51,740 bases of DNA. Source: Hydrogenimonas sp. GTDB taxonomy: Bacteria > Campylobacterota > Campylobacteria > Campylobacterales > Hydrogenimonadaceae. This document shows, piece by piece, positions 42,492-51,491 of the stretch. The notes beneath the pieces were generated by a model. The model was not told where the DNA came from. It made no database searches and saw only the letters and a program-made list of their open reading frames with translations. Each line of letters begins with the position of its first letter. Position 1 is the stretch's first letter. The position numbers were made by a program, and so were the translations under genes. The stretch spans positions 1 through 51,740 of the forward strand of contig WFYC01000022.1 in assembly GCA_015490295.1 (NCBI GenBank). Direction: 5' to 3'.

Positions 42492-43004
42492 TTAATGTCC
42501 ATGCTCTTCATCTGACTTTTCTATCTTAAGTGCCGGAAATCTATGAGTTGCAAATTTGGAATGACAGTTTACACATGCATTGATCATCTTGGAAAAGTAG
42601 AAGTTGGCCAACTCAGCGTTTCTCTTTTCAGCTACATGCTTAAGCATTCCGGCATCTTTATGAAAAGATTTATCCAACTCTATAAAAGCCGGCGGTAGCT
42701 TACTGTGCAGCTCTTTTGCCTGCTCTTTTGTAAGCTTTTGCTTTAAAATATAACTGTTTTTTATTTTTTTGGATATTTTTTCAATTTCACCCCAATTACC
42801 TGAAGCAAGAGCCGGAACGAGCGACATTACTCCTTTTTGCAAGGCAGTCATCTCTTGTGACAACAGGCCTCTAAGTTCAGGCGAAAGCGCTTCGACTCCA
42901 GCTTCAGTATGCATCTCGTGATGTTTTGCATGCTCACCTGCATGCGTAGATATACATGATGCTGCTACCAATAGCAGAACAGAATTTTTCACCATTTTTT
43001 TCAT
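42492..43004 (-). CDS. exported cytochrome c'-like monohaem protein
   Basis: 170 residues: signal peptide (about 1-22, possibly a lipobox with Cys17), a His-rich segment (GEHAKHHEMHTEAG) and a mostly helical body. A single haem-c motif CVNCH lies near the C-terminus (144-148). A C-terminal haem motif on a four-helix-type protein is the layout of class II cytochromes c (c' and cytochrome c-556). It could bind small gases or carry electrons in the periplasm. It is the first accessory gene on the minus strand after aroE and has no close partner. Confidence 0.82.
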   Translation of the reverse strand: MKKMVKNSVLLLVAASCISTHAGEHAKHHEMHTEAGVEALSPELRGLLSQEMTALQKGVMSLVPALASGNWGEIEKISKKIKNSYILKQKLTKEQAKELHSKLPPAFIELDKSFHKDAGMLKHVAEKRNAELANFYFSKMINACVNCHSKFATHRFPALKIEKSDEEHGH

Positions 43005-43223: not shown

Positions 43224-43535
43224 TTAGGCATATGTAGAAAAGCCGAATTCACTTGAACTGGACTCTTCTGAATTGGATTGACTCACCATATCTAAAAGTG
43301 TTTGTGCATAATCAGCACTACTCATAGATGTTGCATCGACTTGCTTCATTTGAGAAATCATTGACTGCCTGTCCGCTTGAGAAAGAGAGCTCATTTGCTC
43401 TTTCAATGCACTTCTCTCTTCTGGCGATAGTTTTTGCATGATATCTCTCATGCCACCCTTGCCTTGCCCTCCACCAACACCTTGCATATTTTGCATATGC
43501 ATCTGTTGCATTGAACCACTTGAGCTTACATTCAT
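43224..43535 (-). CDS. small Met/Gln/Ser-rich protein, unknown function
   Basis: 103 residues, no clear signal peptide. The N-terminus is rich in Met, Gln, His and Gly (MQQMHMQNMQGVGGGQGKGG). A helical acidic/basic segment follows (MRDIMQKLSPEERSALKEQM) with LSPEER, recalling Spy/CpxP or EF-hand-like sensors, then a Ser-rich tail. The Met/His cluster could bind copper, but that is only suggested by composition. A good ribosome site (AAGGAG) precedes the ATG. Flanking gaps are about 219 and 129 nt, with nothing recognised in them. Confidence 0.65.
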   Translation of the reverse strand: MNVSSSGSMQQMHMQNMQGVGGGQGKGGMRDIMQKLSPEERSALKEQMSSLSQADRQSMISQMKQVDATSMSSADYAQTLLDMVSQSNSEESSSSEFGFSTYA

Positions 43536-43664: not shown

Positions 43665-44273
43665 CTATTTTTCAAGAGATTTAAAGAACTCATAAGCGGC
43701 AAAATTTTTGGGATCCAGAATCAAGATATCTTCATAAACTTTTTTAGCGTTCTCTATATCATTCGATCTTTGATATATCTTTGCCAAAAGCTCCAAAAAA
43801 GGAGTATCGGTTGGATATAGAGAGAGCATCTTGTAAGCTATGGCTTTAGCGTTAGTCAAATCTTTCTTTCCTATGAGGATTTTCATAAGATATAAATTTG
43901 CATAATAGCTATAATAATCCGTTTTTAAAATATCGTTACATATCTTAAGTGCGTCATCATATTTTTGCTGAAGAATATATATGTTAATTATTCCAAGTCT
44001 AGGAGGTATTGCGCTTTTTATGGCTATAGCCGCTTTTTTGTAATGATGGAGCGCATTTTTATACTTTTTATCTAGATAATAGAGCCACCCCAGCCTAAGA
44101 TTTGGCGTATAGGCATCGGGATATTTTTGTATTACGGGCATTAAAGATTTTATAGCATCTTCATAATCTCCCATCTTTTCATAATTATAGGAGTCATAAT
44201 AAGATTTCTTTATAAAATCATCATAAGCGAAAGAGAAAACGGCCAATATTGCAAACAAGACTACTTTTTTCAT
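43665..44273 (-). CDS. periplasmic TPR protein
   Basis: 202 residues with a signal peptide (about 1-16, ending FSFA) and at least four TPR-like repeats: YNYEKMGDYEDAIKSLMPVI, LGWLYYLDKKYKNALHHYKK, LQQKYDDALKICNDIL and LAKIYQRSNDIENAKKVYED. It is probably a protein-interaction scaffold in the periplasm. It lies 8 nt after the outer-membrane barrel gene and is last in the six-gene operon starting at 49877. Its place suggests it links the barrel to other parts of the system. Confidence 0.85.
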   Translation of the reverse strand: MKKVVLFAILAVFSFAYDDFIKKSYYDSYNYEKMGDYEDAIKSLMPVIQKYPDAYTPNLRLGWLYYLDKKYKNALHHYKKAAIAIKSAIPPRLGIINIYILQQKYDDALKICNDILKTDYYSYYANLYLMKILIGKKDLTNAKAIAYKMLSLYPTDTPFLELLAKIYQRSNDIENAKKVYEDILILDPKNFAAYEFFKSLEK

Positions 44274-44281
44274 AGTTCCCC

Positions 44282-45181
44282 CTAGAAAATATAGCTAAAC
44301 GACAACCCCGCCGCCAACATATTTGTATCTTCTGCTGTCTCGGTATCGGTGAATTTTTCATATGCCAGGTCGAAACTGAAGCCAAGACTCTCTTTTATTT
44401 TATAGTCTATTATCAGTCCGGCTCCACCATTGTGAATCTCCGCAAGATTATATACCGTGAACCCTCCATTTCTCACCGCATAGGCTTGTTTACCCCCCCA
44501 AACGTATCCGGTGGTTGTAAATTTTCCGTAATAGTTAGTAACTGAAAGCTGGACGGAGTGGTTGTTGTTGTCATACTCTGCAACACTCCTGATGGTATGC
44601 ATATTTGGTCTGGCACTGTGACTGTTTACCGTTTCTACAATGTTGCTCTCTTCAAACGTAATATAGAAATATTGCAGATTCAGGTAAAAATCCCCTGATT
44701 GACGAGTATGCAAATATTTACCTACCGATGGAGTCAGCTGCCATACGTTCAGAGTTGGAGAGAAGTTGCCATAGTTGGAGTAATACCCATCTATCCCAAT
44801 ATCGAAACTCTCTTTTTCATAATATCTTACCCCTCCGAAAAAGACCATGCCTCCGTCGGTAAGGTAGTCATCCGAATCAATATAGTGAACCCCTCCTTTA
44901 AGAATATAGTTCTGCACGCTGTAGTTTGAATATACAAACGTAAAATCGTTTTGGCCGAAAGTCTGAGTATTGTCTTTATAGTCCAGCTTTAAATAGCTAT
45001 ACTGTATATCCAACTGCTGTTGCATATCTTTTCTGCTCATATAGACTCCGCCGTAAAAACCATTCTCTTTTACGCTGTTGTCTCCATAGCCAACATAACC
45101 GGCAAACGGTGTAACCGTATTTATCTCCGACGCAACCAAAGATAAAACCGTTAACAAAAACAACAATACTGTTTTTCTCAC
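44282..45181 (-). CDS. outer-membrane beta-barrel protein
   Basis: 299 residues with a signal peptide (about 1-18). Many alternating-hydrophobicity strands rich in Tyr, Gly and Asn follow (MQQQLDIQYSYLKLDYKD, YILKGGVHYIDSD, GGVRYYEKESFDIGIDGYYS). The C-terminal strand ends GLSFSYIF with the terminal Phe recognised by the Bam complex. No porin family is recognised by eye; about 12-14 strands seem possible. It overlaps the upstream transporter-M23 gene by 4 nt, implying a joint role. Confidence 0.85.
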   Translation of the reverse strand: MRKTVLLFLLTVLSLVASEINTVTPFAGYVGYGDNSVKENGFYGGVYMSRKDMQQQLDIQYSYLKLDYKDNTQTFGQNDFTFVYSNYSVQNYILKGGVHYIDSDDYLTDGGMVFFGGVRYYEKESFDIGIDGYYSNYGNFSPTLNVWQLTPSVGKYLHTRQSGDFYLNLQYFYITFEESNIVETVNSHSARPNMHTIRSVAEYDNNNHSVQLSVTNYYGKFTTTGYVWGGKQAYAVRNGGFTVYNLAEIHNGGAGLIIDYKIKESLGFSFDLAYEKFTDTETAEDTNMLAAGLSFSYIF

Positions 45182-47274
45182 TTTTTTCTCCTTATAATCA
45201 AGTTTTCAACCATAATTGAGTCAAAAAAATGTATTTCATCTATCTTGACAGAGCAGATTATTTTTCTTCCATTCAACTCAATTTCACCTTTTATAAAATC
45301 ATTCTCTTTTTCCCAAGTCCCCCTATATAAAAACCTTCGACTGAAAAAAGAGGCCAAAAACATTAAAAGTTCTTTTTTAAACCAACCAAAAACGATTCTG
45401 GGTGTCAGCGTATCTCTCCATCTTACCCTTCTATTGTCGACAAGTGGGACTCTCGGAACGGCAATGAAAAACTTTTTGAGGTAACTGCTGTCACTTCCCA
45501 CATAATCATAAAAGTAGAACACTCCGTAATCTTTGGCGAAGAAGAGCCGGTTCTTCTTCTCATCTTCAAAGAAAAACCTCCCGCTGAATCTATCCATCTC
45601 CACTCTTATACTGAACTCGTCTATTCTCTTTTCATCTTCAAAAACTTCGTAACGATACACAGAATCCAATACGAAACTGAATTTGCTGTCCAATGATTTA
45701 TCGGCGCTGAAGCTGGATATCTTCTCATCTTTTTTAGGTCTATCATAAAAAAAGATACTCTCTTTTTTCAAATAGGCAACGAAGTTGAAAGGGATCGTTT
45801 TGGAGCCTAGATATGAATTTTCTTGAACCTGGATATGAATATGGGGTTCAGGCGAATATCCGCTGTTGCCGCAAAGCGCAACTATCTGTCCCGCTTCAAC
45901 GTAATCACCTTTTTTTACCCGCAAAGAGTTTTGAGCCAGGTGAGAGACCTCTACATAAGCGCCGCCGCTTGTAGATAAGACTAGGTAGTTCCCCCAGTTG
46001 TTAATATTGTCCACCTCTCCTATCGGGTTGTCTTTATGGTGTGATACCGCTTCGACAACATATCCGCTAACAGGAGACAACACCGGCTTTTTGAACGCAT
46101 AGTAGTCTTCAGGAAAGTTCCCGCTGTTTTTGTAGCTTTTGCCATCTTTGTCTCTTATAACAAAATCGTAGGCATATCTCCATCTGCCCTGATGGGTCCA
46201 GATATCATCAAAAGCCTGGTATACGCTCCATGTCCCCGAAAAGGGCAAAAATATACCGACTTCGTTCGTTCTGAACCTGAAAAGGCTCATAAGGTAGTAG
46301 CTCAAACTGTTTTCGGGGGTTCTCTTTATCACATATGCAAACTCTTTATATCTTACAAGACGCAGCACAAATAAAAAACTTATAACAGTGAAATTAAAAG
46401 GCAGGGTAAAAACGGGGATCTTGTATAGAGTCCAAAAAATCGCCGTAGAGTCTACAAGCAACACCGAAATTCCCACCCCGAGCATTGCCATCAAATAGCT
46501 TCTGATACCGGGGATCAAAAATATAGAGCCTAAAGCAATAGCGACCAAAACATAATTAAACCCGTACGGATTTAACAAAGAAGAGATAAACGAACCGCTT
46601 AGCAGCGAATGTATATAGACTCCAAAGTAGTATCCGGCAACTGCTAAAATTGCCATTATTCTGGAATGAAAAAGAATGAAAATAAAAAAGAAGACTCCAA
46701 CCCAAAAATTGGGCAAGAAAAGAATAGTCCCTATAGATTTGAAAAAAGAGTCTATCCAAACAGGTACGTAAATAGATCCGTTTAAAAGTCCGGAATGGTT
46801 GTAAAGAGTCTCTATAAAAAGGTTTGAGTAATTAAGCGACGCTAAATAAACGATAGAGCTGACTATTGCAAAAGGCAGCGATAATATAGGAATGAGATAG
46901 ATTGAAAAGAGAGTATGCAAAACTATGGTAACCAAAAAGGTTAAAACGGAAGCGACGGCTATCAAAAAAACGGTTACGAGTGAGAGTTTAAACAGAAAAC
47001 CTATGCTCATTCCCACCAGCAAAGGGTTATAGATATAAAAGCCGCTCTCCAAAAACTCGGGGTCCATCCTGATATAAGCGGCAAAAAGAAGGACGAAAAC
47101 CACTCCCAAAAGACCGCTTATCGCAACGTTTGGATTAATGAACGTCGCTATCAAAAGCAGGATGCCTATCTTTTTATTTTTAATAAACAGTATCTCCGCA
47201 TATGCGGATAAAATAGAGTTGGTGTAAGATTGAAAACTTTTCAAACCAGCCGTATCGATCAAAGATTTCATCAT
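45178..47274 (-). CDS. urea-transporter-like membrane domain fused to an M23 (LytM-type) domain
   Basis: 698 residues. Residues 1-310 contain about 10-12 helices with urea-transporter-like repeat motifs IYNPLLVGMSIGFLF (about 81-95) and LNPYGFNYVLVAIALGSIFL (234-253). Residues about 340-500 resemble an M23 peptidase: WRYAYDF (365-371), SHL (444-446) and PHIHIQV (477-483). The canonical HxGxD is replaced by RYAYD, so one zinc ligand is missing at the expected place, although His361 is close. Residues 510-698 form an additional, mostly beta, hydrophilic domain of unknown kind. It overlaps both operon neighbours by 4 nt. Confidence 0.8.
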   Translation of the reverse strand: MMKSLIDTAGLKSFQSYTNSILSAYAEILFIKNKKIGILLLIATFINPNVAISGLLGVVFVLLFAAYIRMDPEFLESGFYIYNPLLVGMSIGFLFKLSLVTVFLIAVASVLTFLVTIVLHTLFSIYLIPILSLPFAIVSSIVYLASLNYSNLFIETLYNHSGLLNGSIYVPVWIDSFFKSIGTILFLPNFWVGVFFFIFILFHSRIMAILAVAGYYFGVYIHSLLSGSFISSLLNPYGFNYVLVAIALGSIFLIPGIRSYLMAMLGVGISVLLVDSTAIFWTLYKIPVFTLPFNFTVISFLFVLRLVRYKEFAYVIKRTPENSLSYYLMSLFRFRTNEVGIFLPFSGTWSVYQAFDDIWTHQGRWRYAYDFVIRDKDGKSYKNSGNFPEDYYAFKKPVLSPVSGYVVEAVSHHKDNPIGEVDNINNWGNYLVLSTSGGAYVEVSHLAQNSLRVKKGDYVEAGQIVALCGNSGYSPEPHIHIQVQENSYLGSKTIPFNFVAYLKKESIFFYDRPKKDEKISSFSADKSLDSKFSFVLDSVYRYEVFEDEKRIDEFSIRVEMDRFSGRFFFEDEKKNRLFFAKDYGVFYFYDYVGSDSSYLKKFFIAVPRVPLVDNRRVRWRDTLTPRIVFGWFKKELLMFLASFFSRRFLYRGTWEKENDFIKGEIELNGRKIICSVKIDEIHFFDSIMVENLIIRRKK

Positions 47275-48620
47275 TTAAGTTTCAGTTTTTCCGGTAAAAT
47301 CTCTCTGTTTTCTATATCGCTCAACTCCTCTCTTTCTCTTATCAACTCCACGTTTCCGTCTTCCGTGACCATCAAAACTCTCGGTCTATACCTGATAAAC
47401 TGCATCCACTGGGTAATGTTATATGCCCCTACCGGAGAGATCACGAGCTTGTCCCCTCTTCTTAGCCTCGGAAGCAGGATCGACTCGTCTATTACGTCTA
47501 TGTTCATACATAGCGGCCCGTTTATCATGGCCGGTTCACTTATACCGCTAATTTCTCTCGTCAACTCAATGTTAAATTTATACCAGAAATAGGTATATAA
47601 AAGATTTACGCCCGCATCTACAATGTAGCTTCTCCTGGAATCTGGCAAAGTTTTGCTGGCAACCACCGAAGTCACCAGGTATCCGGCCTCGTCTATAAGA
47701 TGCCTTCCGGTTTCAAGATAGAGTTTTGGGTAGCTGTTTCCTCTGATGTTTTCATACAGTGCGCTTGTTATGGCTTCCGCATAATCGTCGATTGTCGGAA
47801 CGACAACTTCCGGCGGCTGGTAGATACCCCTTAGATGGTTTTTTGAAGCGAAACCTCCGCCGACATCGATATACTCTATCGTAAATCCGACCTTCTCTTC
47901 CACTTCATTCATCAACCTGACCATTTTTGTGGTCTCTACCTTATATGCGTTCGCATCCAGCATAAAAGTTCCGATATGAGCGTGAAGACCTGTGAGCCTG
48001 AGTTTACCGCCGGCTTTTATACGTTTTACCGCATCCATCGCCTGACCGCTTTCTATATTGAACCCGAAGCGACTCCATTGCGGGTAGATTCCGGTATCCA
48101 TATTGAGTCTTATGGCCACAGGAATCTCGGATCCAAGCTCATCGGCAACCTTTTCAAGATCGTTTATCTCATCGAAAGTATCTATATGGATCTTGGCACC
48201 CTCTTTCGCCGCCGTAACCAAAGAGTCGTAAGGCTTATAGGGACCGTTGTATATGATATCTTTCCCCTCTATGCCCAACTCTCTCGCTTTTTCATACTCA
48301 AATTCGCTCACAACTTCGGCAATAGCACCTTCCTGGTGAAAAACCGCACAGACCGCCTTTAGATAATTGGTCTTATAGCTCCATCCAAACTGCACATTTG
48401 GATATCTGCTCGAAAACGCTTCATAAGCACTTCTGTACTTCTCTCTTATAGCCTTTTCATCAAAAATAAAGAGCGGGGAGCCGAATCTCTCCACCATCTC
48501 GTCAATAGCCACTCCCCCTATCTTTTTTCTGATTTTCTGTTTCGGCATGGGAACTCCGGCTTTCGAGTGGCTGCTCTCTACCTTGATTATGGTAGGTTTT
48601 TCATAAGTTTTTATAGCCAT
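47271..48620 (-). CDS. fold-type III PLP decarboxylase (DapDC-like) with leader-like N-terminal tail
   Basis: 449 residues from the ATG at 48620, which has AAGGAG upstream; an in-frame start at 48647 is weaker. The PLP lysine is K83 (WSYKTNYLKA), with EVVSEFEYEKA, GLHAHIGTFM (211-220), DVGGGFASK (252-260), LETGRHLIDEAG and the second-subunit Cys region NGPLCMNIDVIDE. It belongs to the diaminopimelate/ornithine decarboxylase superfamily, but the substrate is unassigned. Residues 1-36 precede the normal start of the fold and include TYEKPTIIKV (YxxPxI), similar to RiPP leader motifs. It overlaps the ATP-grasp gene by 20 nt. Confidence 0.88.
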   Translation of the reverse strand: MAIKTYEKPTIIKVESSHSKAGVPMPKQKIRKKIGGVAIDEMVERFGSPLFIFDEKAIREKYRSAYEAFSSRYPNVQFGWSYKTNYLKAVCAVFHQEGAIAEVVSEFEYEKARELGIEGKDIIYNGPYKPYDSLVTAAKEGAKIHIDTFDEINDLEKVADELGSEIPVAIRLNMDTGIYPQWSRFGFNIESGQAMDAVKRIKAGGKLRLTGLHAHIGTFMLDANAYKVETTKMVRLMNEVEEKVGFTIEYIDVGGGFASKNHLRGIYQPPEVVVPTIDDYAEAITSALYENIRGNSYPKLYLETGRHLIDEAGYLVTSVVASKTLPDSRRSYIVDAGVNLLYTYFWYKFNIELTREISGISEPAMINGPLCMNIDVIDESILLPRLRRGDKLVISPVGAYNITQWMQFIRYRPRVLMVTEDGNVELIREREELSDIENREILPEKLKLK

Positions 48621-49644
48621 TGCTTTCTCCTTTCGTGGCCAGTTCACTCAGCTTGTCGATATCCGTAATAAGCTCGTATGTATATCTGACCATCATCTTT
48701 CCGCTCTCATAATCGCCCGACATATCACTATTCTTATCGAACATAACGTCTAAAACTCTTTTGGGAAGATTCACCCCCACACCCGTGGCAAAATATACCC
48801 AGGCCGGGAATCGCGGATTTATCTCTATCAAAATGATATTATCTTCATCGACTATACACTCGAGCTCAAAAGGACCTTTCCACTTATATTTGCCAACGAA
48901 ATCTTCGGCGACTTTCAGCAGCTTCTCATGCTTGATCGTAACGCCGTTCCATATCTTTCCTAGATGAGTAGTTGTCATCTTTTTTATAGCCACGAGCCCC
49001 AAAGAGTTCCCTTTTCCGTCACCAGCGCCTATGACGTTGAGCTCATCCCCTTTTACAATCTCCTGAACCAGTATGGGGAAGCCCCACTCGTTCGAGATCT
49101 CCGTAAAATAGTAAACGGCCTCAGGTAAAGATTTGGCTTTATATGCCTTGTAATAGTTACCTTTTACTACACACGGAAATCCTATCTCGTTTACCGCCTT
49201 TTTAAGCTGGTCGATATTGAAAACTTTTTTGGTTTTCGGATACGAAATTTCCAGTACTTCACTAATATCGCCAAGATTCTCTTTGCTTCTTAGTTCAAAC
49301 TGCTCAAGGTTCGGCAGGAAAGTTTTTATACCTGCCTCCTTCAAATCATCCTGATACTTGATATACGACGGCAACTCCGCATCCAGTGTGGGAATAACGG
49401 CATCAAGACCGTAACTCTCTTTTATATACAAAAGCCTGTTAAATATAGGCTCCCACCCTTGTGACGGGTAGGTCAAAACGTAGCTTTTGTCTATCACAAA
49501 ATCCATAAAGTTGCCCGGGTCCTGGACATCGTAGCTAAGACCCACGGTCTTTATGGAAGAGTCGGCTTCCTTTAAACTTCTCGCCACACCGATACCCGGC
49601 CCGGGATTGTCCGTATCGTTTACTCCGCTAATCGCTACAATCAT
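48601..49644 (-). CDS. ATP-grasp ligase (carbamoyl-phosphate-synthase-like)
   Basis: 347 residues. The N-terminal pre-ATP-grasp domain is Rossmann-like (MIVAISGVNDTDNPGPGIGV). The ATP-grasp fold follows (about 105-300), with FPCVVKGNYYKAYKAKS (ATP-binding Lys), PILVQEIVKGDELNVIGAGD and metal-binding ELECIVDEDNIILIEINPRF (EINPR). Such enzymes join a carboxylate to an amine or thiol through an acyl phosphate. The substrate is unknown. It shares an ATGA junction with the PqqD-like gene, so the two are translationally coupled, and it is the likely bond-forming enzyme of the operon. Confidence 0.9.
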   Translation of the reverse strand: MIVAISGVNDTDNPGPGIGVARSLKEADSSIKTVGLSYDVQDPGNFMDFVIDKSYVLTYPSQGWEPIFNRLLYIKESYGLDAVIPTLDAELPSYIKYQDDLKEAGIKTFLPNLEQFELRSKENLGDISEVLEISYPKTKKVFNIDQLKKAVNEIGFPCVVKGNYYKAYKAKSLPEAVYYFTEISNEWGFPILVQEIVKGDELNVIGAGDGKGNSLGLVAIKKMTTTHLGKIWNGVTIKHEKLLKVAEDFVGKYKWKGPFELECIVDEDNIILIEINPRFPAWVYFATGVGVNLPKRVLDVMFDKNSDMSGDYESGKMMVRYTYELITDIDKLSELATKGESNGYKNL

Positions 49645-49877
49645 GGCAGCAGTCCATAAAGTTTCAGTTTCTCTTTAAAATCCAAAACATCGTTCAGGGC
49701 CTCCTCCTGAGTCACATCATACTCTTCGGAAAGCTTTTTCGCTATCTCTTTCTCTTCAACTCCCCTGGCTAAATCTTCTATAATCTCTTTAGCCGTCTCA
49801 TTCAGAGTAAAAGTCTCGCCGCTTGTCGGATCGAACGCAAAACCGTTTTTGTTAACAGCCAAATTCTCTATCCTCAT
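49641..49877 (-). CDS. PqqD-family small protein (RiPP recognition-element fold)
   Basis: 78 residues with the PqqD pattern: GFAFDPTSGETFTLNETAKE (the strand pair plus helix that form a peptide-binding winged helix), then EIIEDLARGVEEKEIAKKLS and a DVLDFKEKLKLYGLL C-terminal helix. In other systems this fold binds leader peptides. No radical SAM PqqE or other PQQ gene is present, so PQQ synthesis is not implied. AAGGAG lies 6 nt before the ATG. First gene of the operon, ATGA-coupled to the ATP-grasp gene. Confidence 0.88.
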   Translation of the reverse strand: MRIENLAVNKNGFAFDPTSGETFTLNETAKEIIEDLARGVEEKEIAKKLSEEYDVTQEEALNDVLDFKEKLKLYGLLP

Positions 49878-49892
49878 TTTTTACTCCTTTAT

Positions 49893-49911
49893 TATAATGA
49901 TAATAACATTG
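49893..49911. promoter_or_regulatory. Fur-box-like sequence upstream of the PqqD-like gene
   Basis: TATAATGATAATAACATTG matches the classical 19-bp Fur box at about 13 positions by hand count, 16 nt upstream of the first operon gene. The match is mostly in the left half, and AT-rich DNA makes chance matches common. A Fur-family regulator is encoded at 35467-35979. Confidence 0.3.
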
Positions 49912-49940
49912 AATGGTTAATGAAACGTTAACGATAAGAG

Positions 49941-49978
49941 CGCAACCGCACGCAACCGGGGTCACGCAACCGGGGTCA
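49941..49978. repeat. short tandem repeats at the left end of the transposase unit
   Basis: CGCAACCGGGGTCA occurs twice head to tail (49951-49964 and 49965-49978), preceded by a partial copy, CGCAACCGCA (49941-49950). The second copy merges with the left inverted end of the transposase unit. Confidence 0.85.
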
Positions 49979-50835
49979 GGTGATGCCAATGCTACTTGCC
50001 GTCCTTTTTATAATCCTCTGAACAGTCGCCTGATTAAGCCCAAGAAACTTTGCGATTCTATACTGCGAAAAGCCTTCACGGTAAGCCTCTACTATTCGTC
50101 TGTTTCTCTCTTTTTTATCTTCTGCGTTTTCAAGCAGCTCTTTGAGCCGCTCATCTTTTAGCCCCTCATTCTCCAAAGGAGCGTCAATCGTAGATGCCGC
50201 CTTTTTCAAAAGCTTCATGTCATCCATATCGGGAGGGGTCCGGAAAAACTCATTCATGGCGTCTTTATCACCCCTGTATAGTTTTAAAAGCCAACTCTTT
50301 TTCAACCACTTCGGCATAGGTATATCGTTTAGAAAGTAGTATGAGGAGGCATATGGGTACTCGCCGCACTTTCGTACTATCTTTGCCTCTACCGGGTTTA
50401 GTTCAATATAGCGGATAAGCGTGTAGAGATACGCCTCATCGGTTACAATGAAGCTTTTGAAGCGCCCCTGCCAAAGGTGGCCGGATCTATCGTATTTTCT
50501 GTTGAAGTAGATGGCGTAGTTGGCATTAATCTGGCGCATGAATCTTGAGAGGTTCGGCTTTTTTGTCTCTATGAGCAGATGGTAGTGGTTGCTCATCAGG
50601 CAGTAGTTATGCACAACCACACCATACGCCCGTGACTCATTAGAGAGAATATCCAAAAACTTCAGATAATCCGCATCCTCTTCAAACACGTTTCGCTGTC
50701 CGACACCGCGGTTTACGATATGGTAATACCCCGGTAAATCGATCCTTGGTCTTCTTGCCATACCCTCTCCTTTTTTGCTTTGTTGGAAAGTTTAGCATGT
50801 TTATGTTTAAAATAGCATTAGCATCACCTGACCCC
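49972..50835 (-). mobile_element. REP-associated tyrosine transposase unit with 23-bp inverted ends
   Basis: The transposase gene is enclosed by inverted ends at 49972-49994 and 50813-50835. They begin GGGGTCAGGTGATGC and match at 22 of 23 positions. The left end supplies the last codons and stop of the transposase gene. The right end lies inside the C-terminal coding part of the membrane protein gene at 51491. The layout is that of RAYT genes flanked by inverted REP-like sequences rather than a classical IS. Confidence 0.78.
49976..50761 (-). CDS. REP-associated tyrosine transposase (TnpA_REP/Y1 family)
   Basis: 261-residue HUH-type nuclease. The N-terminus ARRPRIDLPGYYHIVNRGVG is the family start. 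The metal-binding HUH motif is in CLMSNHYHLLIET, followed by RFMRQINANYAIYFNRKYDR, HLWQGRFKSFIV and the YIELNPVEAKIV block near the catalytic Tyr. A C-terminal helix-turn-helix (about 220-255, YRIAKFLGLNQATVQRIIKR) is appended. The ribosome site AAGGAG precedes the ATG. The stop codon lies in the left inverted end, so element end and gene end coincide. It appears intact. Confidence 0.9.
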   Translation of the reverse strand: MARRPRIDLPGYYHIVNRGVGQRNVFEEDADYLKFLDILSNESRAYGVVVHNYCLMSNHYHLLIETKKPNLSRFMRQINANYAIYFNRKYDRSGHLWQGRFKSFIVTDEAYLYTLIRYIELNPVEAKIVRKCGEYPYASSYYFLNDIPMPKWLKKSWLLKLYRGDKDAMNEFFRTPPDMDDMKLLKKAASTIDAPLENEGLKDERLKELLENAEDKKERNRRIVEAYREGFSQYRIAKFLGLNQATVQRIIKRTASSIGIT

Positions 50836-51491
50836 GCATTTCTAAATATCAACCGGTTGGAAGCTTTTTTATCTATCACGGTAACTGGATATATATCTTT
50901 CTTTTTATTTCCATAGCCATCTATTCGTATTTCTACAATATCTTCTAAAGGAATCTTTTTTTTGTAAAAAATTCCCCAAATTGGCTTTAAAATTATAAAA
51001 TCAAACCAATTCATTTCTACATCGCTTGCTGGAATAAATAAAAAACCATCTTTCATAATAACTTTTTTATTTGTGAAATAAGCTTTTATTGCAGGTATCA
51101 GTGCTAAGACAAAAATACTCTCAAAAGCTAAAATACCAATAACGATTTCTTTTACTTTTGGATTTTCGAAAATAGTAAGTCCTCCTGTATAAAATAAAAA
51201 ACCTAGGACTACAAAAAGAACAATTGCAGCTAAAACATATAGTGCTGCTAAAAACTTAAGAAATCCAACAAATAAAATAAATAATAAAATAATAGGTAAT
51301 ATAGTATTATTAGCTGTATTTGAGGCCTGATCAGGAAAAATAAAAAATATATAATATATTCCTATGATAAATATTCCTATGGAAATTATATTAATAAAAA
51401 CATTTTCCGAGTATCGTTTTCCCAAATGAAAATCTACAATTTCTATTCCACCTCTTTTATATTCTTGTTCTAGTACTTTATTGTCTGACAT
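50682..51491 (-). pseudogene. membrane protein with bacterial-PH-like domain, 3' end replaced by transposase unit
   Basis: The native part (51491 to about 50836, some 218 residues) has four hydrophobic helices (about 31-51, 64-80, 84-104, 116-134). A PH/YcxB-like region follows (KVIMKDGFLFIPASDVEMNW, KKIPLEDIVEIRIDGYGNKK). At IFRN the frame enters the right end of the transposase unit and reads a foreign tail starting AGSGDAN for about 51 residues. The true C-terminus is therefore lost or altered. Its start overlaps the upstream HNH-like gene by 14 nt. The DNA is very AT-rich. Confidence 0.7.

Follow-up and report, generated by a model that had tools for sequence, protein, structure and literature searches.

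A conserved, seemingly mobile six-gene cassette of Campylobacterota in which a PqqD-family RRE protein may dock on the tail of an FslC-like decarboxylase

The six minus-strand genes at positions 43665-49877 of the window (the 51,740-nucleotide stretch of Hydrogenimonas sp. DNA analysed here) form one real, conserved unit, present all-or-none in bacteria related to hot-vent species. We suggest, with a confidence that falls just short of even, that this mobile cassette builds a small specialised metabolite and carries it to the outside; we lean slightly towards a conjugate as the product, and regard export and uptake as evenly balanced, the direction of transport being a guess. This reading keeps the make-then-move outline of the original prediction—the first three gene products look cytoplasmic and biosynthetic, the rest inner-membrane, periplasmic or outer-membrane—and departs from it in its details: the kinship of the decarboxylase, the target of PqqD, the side of the membrane on which the peptidase domain lies and the supposed passage of urea.

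Working from the 5′ end of the operon, we find a 78-aa PqqD-family RRE protein (49641-49877; PF05402, 54 bits), an ATP-grasp ligase of the carbamoyl-phosphate-synthase-like family (48601-49644; 347 aa), a PLP decarboxylase with an alanine-racemase fold, of the FslC/DAPDC group (47271-48620), a 698-aa fusion of a UT channel to an M23 domain (‘UT-M23’; 45178-47274), an outer-membrane beta-barrel with a signal peptide (44282-45181), and a periplasmic TPR protein whose signal peptide was judged by eye (43665-44273); all six lie on the minus strand exactly where they had been placed before, and are joined, as already described, by four overlaps (4, 20, 4 and 4 nt) and a single 8-nt gap. The second of these overlaps depends on the start codon chosen for the decarboxylase: the mechanical ORF begins at GTG 48647, but the homologues start MKYEKPTI or MYEKPTI and so favour ATG 48620, thereby restoring the 20 nt. 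Ahead of PqqD is a promoter-like TTAACC-18-TATAAT, then an AAAGGAG ribosome-binding site (49891-49920, minus strand; a consensus match only). The AT-richness originally remarked upon is also apparent, the operon genes having a GC content of 32-45% and a GC3 of 0.31-0.51, compared with 48-56% and 0.59-0.69 for nine other (upstream) genes of the window.

Downstream of the operon, in the same AT-rich stretch, are genes for a small 103-aa protein (43224-43535) and a cytochrome c′-like protein (42492-43004), both of which also lie downstream of the operon in L021, the near twin of the window locus. Directly upstream of the operon promoter sits a RAYT-like REP-associated tyrosine transposase (49976-50761), bounded by inverted repeats of 27 nt (49971-49997 and 50810-50836) and with the tandem 14-nt repeat CACGCAACCGGGGT beside it at 49949-49976, all within 49949-50836; in related loci this upstream slot is held by a histidine kinase. 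A 269-aa membrane-protein ORF (50682-51491), with no Pfam or NCBIfam match, was probably truncated by the RAYT element, since its C terminus runs through the element's repeat.

With UT-M23, an ATP-grasp alignment and a barrel alignment as separate queries, scans of 298 Campylobacterota genomes independently recovered an identical set of 16, and no full-length matches elsewhere among the 298; the co-occurrence by which the original prediction was to be judged so holds within the phylum. Each carrier genome has one operon locus, which the PqqD, PLP decarboxylase and TPR genes adjoin, the TPR gene having gone from one decayed copy. The order ATP-grasp, PLP, UT-M23 is fixed across loci, and that of barrel and TPR is variable (swapped, or with the barrel moved upstream). 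One carrier, the complete genome G039, contains the har primer of Nautilia profundicola (PMC3701875) and is very probably that species.

Several lines of evidence point to a mobile cassette that has spread horizontally. In a tree of rpoB (disregarding the mis-framed row of G074), the six genomes of family f9 cluster together (98/100), whereas the operon tree places G053 and G057 with the window's copy (G000), distant from the remaining f9 copies, and the window's copy is nested within another family's clade. This conflict is accompanied by the low GC of the operon, by the lack of any UT gene in the majority of genomes sampled in the window's genus and by flanking genes that vary from family to family. 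The operon is also dispensable, as judged from decaying copies in G053 and G224 (at L025 6214-12433 and L038 6993-12973): the decarboxylase and UT-M23 genes are broken in both, and the barrel too in L038, with the PqqD and ATP-grasp frames remaining open. A scan of genome contigs gave only three close relatives, all Campylobacterales; viral contigs held no relative of UT-M23, and plasmids gave UT-only or M23-only matches with no UT-M23 fusion, the plasmid relatives of the ATP-grasp and decarboxylase genes sitting in unrelated loci. We found no paper describing the six-gene set, in line with the original statement that no characterised pathway contains it. A role in anti-phage defence was rejected, PADLOC matching 0/6 of the proteins.

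Many loci carry a regulator alongside the operon. In L024, a response regulator of the OmpR type (Pfam Response_reg and Trans_reg_C) lies upstream along with a histidine kinase, and L022, L023 and L025 have relatives; most other loci have a diverged response-regulator relative between TPR and barrel, or just past TPR, and the window and its near twin are without one. The relative at L026 10905-11495 has, by Pfam, the DNA-binding domain alone left, and that at L027 6589-7200 has no Pfam match, its L024 counterpart being canonical; the receiver domain of these operon-side regulators seems to be degenerating.

Turning to the enzymes, the ATP-grasp ligase is 47-97% identical to its homologues and has a single relative in the PDB (2pn1), its family giving no hint of substrate. 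The decarboxylase, previously labelled DapDC-like, is closest to FslC instead, by profile score (for the window enzyme: FslC 246, LysA 235, DokD 134, PEP1 116, SpeA 45 and NspC 14 bits), by its best PDB relative (the N-citrylornithine decarboxylase 7kh2; E 4e-62) and by the Cys-Met that its C-terminal domain has in common with FslC, in place of the Cys-Glu of M. jannaschii DAPDC. All of these scores fall below the curated cut-offs (FslC NF041039, 245.9 bits against 500; LysA TIGR01048, 234.7 bits against 297.9, for the window enzyme), and the FslC and LysA profiles each match 15/15 operon decarboxylases. A housekeeping role as LysA, SpeA or NspC was rejected, each having its own gene in the carriers: a separate, true LysA scoring 512-554 bits is found in 16/16, as are two more decarboxylase relatives per genome, read as SpeA and NspC by their length and score.

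The residues of FslC proposed to contact citrate, H357, R387 and N389 (PMC7857480), align with I, Q and M in the operon enzyme. Given the resemblance to FslC, the change in these residues and the presence of a separate LysA, the enzyme probably acts on an amino-acid conjugate, though not on N-citrylornithine. The nearest precedent would be the FslA/FslC (FigA/FigC) step of rhizoferrin synthesis, together with the SbnH, AcsE and BtrK decarboxylases, where an acid is ligated to an amino acid and the resulting conjugate is then decarboxylated; with FslC the operon enzyme shares its status as an alanine-racemase-fold PLP enzyme in which Cys-Met replaces Cys-Glu, but differs in its altered citrate-binding residues and in possessing a YxKPxI tail, and the partnering ligase is here an ATP-grasp enzyme. 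FslC is the closest characterised relative, and homologues in its clade probably work in specialised metabolism, for example on siderophores (PMC7857480); one might suppose from this that the conjugate is itself a metallophore, whether a siderophore of the carboxylate type or some different metal ligand, on the pattern of FslC, SbnH and AcsE. We consider this decidedly unlikely: an IucA/IucC-type NIS synthetase is found in 0/16 carrier genomes, the six genes include no TonB-dependent receptor, and the very residues proposed to hold citrate have changed.

Compared with FslC, the decarboxylase has about 29 additional N-terminal residues (position 9 of the FslC profile aligns at residue 38). Within this tail Tyr15, Lys17, Pro18 and Ile20 are invariant in 15/15 aligned decarboxylases, making up a YxKPxI motif (Tyr-Glu-Lys-Pro-Thr-Ile in the window, at 48588-48605 on the minus strand), and Pro33 and Gln37 are likewise invariant. 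The motif fits the published consensus [Y/W]xxPx[L/V/I/F/A], bound by discrete lasso RREs (PMC13381572; PMC12710340); in the first 25 residues of 261 other genes of the operon loci its loose form occurs once, and its strict form not at all.

The partner that we propose for this tail is PqqD. All 15 members match the lasso PqqD profile NF033530, the window's copy falling under the curated cut-off, and the best PDB relatives are the lasso RREs TbiB1 and TfuB1. The YxxP-binding, leader-contact residues reported for LppB (PMC13381572) map onto PqqD at a single constant offset, with 13/13 conserved in class and 6/13 identical (other offsets give at most 7 matches in class), a mapping made from the residue numbers in that paper as opposed to the LppB sequence. 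Residues N26, D63, F67, L71 and L76 of PqqD match YxxP-binding residues of LppB; D63 (LppB D70, which hydrogen-bonds the tyrosine) and F67 (LppB F74) are invariant, and N26 (LppB N33, at the proline kink) is kept in 13/15. Judged on its sequence, PqqD appears to be an RRE with the YxxP-binding pocket expected of a RiPP pathway. The resemblance to TbiB1 and TfuB1/FusB1 (discrete lasso RREs, with YxxP leaders) and to LppB extends to fold family, peptide-binding residues and recognition motif; unlike in those systems, it is an enzyme and not a precursor that bears the motif, and the six operon genes include neither a B2 leader protease nor a C macrolactam synthetase (cyclase). As to other roles for this protein, PQQ biosynthesis does not fit, the score against PQQ_PqqD being 21.4 bits for a cut-off of 46 and the operon having no radical SAM gene; we set aside a LysW-like amino-group carrier, the C terminus not being conserved as Glu or Gly.

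A lasso-RRE-like PqqD invites a RiPP interpretation, in which a precursor encoded elsewhere is presented by PqqD, modified by the ATP-grasp and PLP enzymes (ATP-grasp enzymes being known RiPP modifiers; PMC8939145) and relieved of its leader by M23, a task that would suit a cytoplasmic peptidase. No such precursor, though, was found: across 19 loci no conserved small ORF lies within 4 kb of the operon, bar the C terminus of the response regulator, and a genome-wide search of G039 for the strict motif returned 29 YxKPxI matches, the one plausible N-terminal case being the decarboxylase itself and none a plausible precursor. We therefore regard a RiPP pathway as unlikely. Taking together the leader motif on the tail, the RRE pocket and the failure of these searches to find a precursor, docking of PqqD on the decarboxylase is the simplest reading, and we think it probable, with good confidence, that PqqD grips this tail rather than the separate small peptide first envisaged. 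Saying this, the tail could instead serve folding or dimerisation.

In an AlphaFold model of UT-M23 (pLDDT 85), Foldseek identifies a UT fold (about 46360-47223), an M23 domain (about 45790-46245) and an uncharacterised, beta-rich C-terminal domain (about 45181-45789). The UT domain superposes on dvUT with a TM-score of 0.8 (normalised by target) and scores 211 bits against PF03253 (cut-off 25); against TIGR03441 (yut) it reaches 122.9 bits, the cut-off being 274.6. Residues F27, F190, F240 and T294 of dvUT are kept, with F80 becoming Tyr and T130 Ser. Gln24 and Glu187 of dvUT, which we take to be the urea-coordinating pair, are replaced, the former by Glu, Ser or Ala and the latter mostly by Thr (E in 2/15, S in 1/15). 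UT-M23 hence shares the fold and Phe slots of the SLC14/UT urea channels (dvUT, UT-B), but has lost this pair and is fused to M23 and beta-rich domains. Urease alpha is found in 0/16 carrier genomes, the only matches being three partial ones of 36-49 aa in other hydrolases. With the Q24/E187 pair lost and urease absent, urea is an unlikely substrate, and the ‘urea channel’ of the original prediction probably carries none; N. profundicola, probably a carrier, is reported not to grow on urea (PMC2628731). An operon for urea or amide uptake, serving nitrogen supply, would explain the retention of the UT fold with its Phe slots and Thr290; against the altered pore, the missing urease and the published no-growth result we judge it extremely improbable, and have rejected urea nitrogen supply.

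The M23 domain retains the fold of the LytM/M23 peptidoglycan endopeptidases (lysostaphin, ShyA, Csd) and all five of their metal/catalytic residues (H361, D370, H445, H478 and H480), invariant in 15/15. The M23 domains known to us act on peptidoglycan, and with an intact active site, and a barrel and TPR protein sited in the envelope, it could be argued that a modified amino acid is made by the products of the first three genes and that a periplasmic M23 domain cuts or remodels peptidoglycan to allow its insertion. The predicted topology argues otherwise. If the UT domain is taken to have 10 TM helices plus two re-entrant ones, Lys/Arg number 7-15 on the side of the termini and 0-4 on the opposite side in every homologue (n=15), which by the positive-inside rule puts the UT termini, and hence M23, in the cytoplasm; no further membrane helix lies between UT and M23, helix 320-334 being short and amphipathic and not transmembrane. 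The M23 domain is thus likely to face the cytoplasm, behind the channel, unlike the endopeptidases it resembles, and the beta-rich C-terminal domain is predicted to be cytoplasmic also. An M23 domain in the cytoplasm would, to our knowledge, be without precedent. Such a location argues against cleavage of the envelope, contrary to the role first suggested, and makes envelope modification very unlikely.

For the barrel, AlphaFold predicts 14 strands (pLDDT 88), and by Foldseek the model comes closest to OmpG (TM 0.61) and CymA; with these 14-strand porins it shares its predicted architecture, but at about 10% identity and, unlike them, co-inherited with a biosynthetic operon.

Assembling these parts, we propose that the ATP-grasp ligase would couple an amino acid and a carboxylic acid, that the FslC-like PLP enzyme would decarboxylate the amino-acid part of the conjugate to leave an amide-amine, and that PqqD, as an RRE adaptor, would hold the two enzymes in complex through its grip on the decarboxylase's leader-like YxKPxI tail. 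The product would then exit through the UT channel, gated or trimmed by the cytoplasm-facing M23 domain, and be carried over the outer membrane by the 14-strand porin with the assistance of the periplasmic TPR protein. Of this picture, the sequences themselves show the unit and its joint inheritance, active sites that are intact, the motif on the tail, the pocket of the RRE, the change in the UT pore and the pattern of charges; the rest is proposed. A large conjugate might not pass through a UT channel, since the solutes that such channels admit are polar and very small. A bolder version, in which an RRE outside RiPP chemistry serves as an enzyme-docking adaptor, with ligation and decarboxylation taking place in one complex and product being released at an M23-trimmed or M23-gated channel (a coupled ‘make-cut-export’ machine), we hold to be doubtful.

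RRE domains are taken to signal ribosomal peptide pathways. With the motif on an enzyme and no precursor found, genome mining guided by RREs would put this operon in the wrong class, and RREs may act more widely, as docking modules. UT-M23, for its part, would link a channel to a peptidase lying on the cytoplasmic side. Since the cultured Nautilia profundicola is very probably among the carriers, the product of the cassette can be sought directly.
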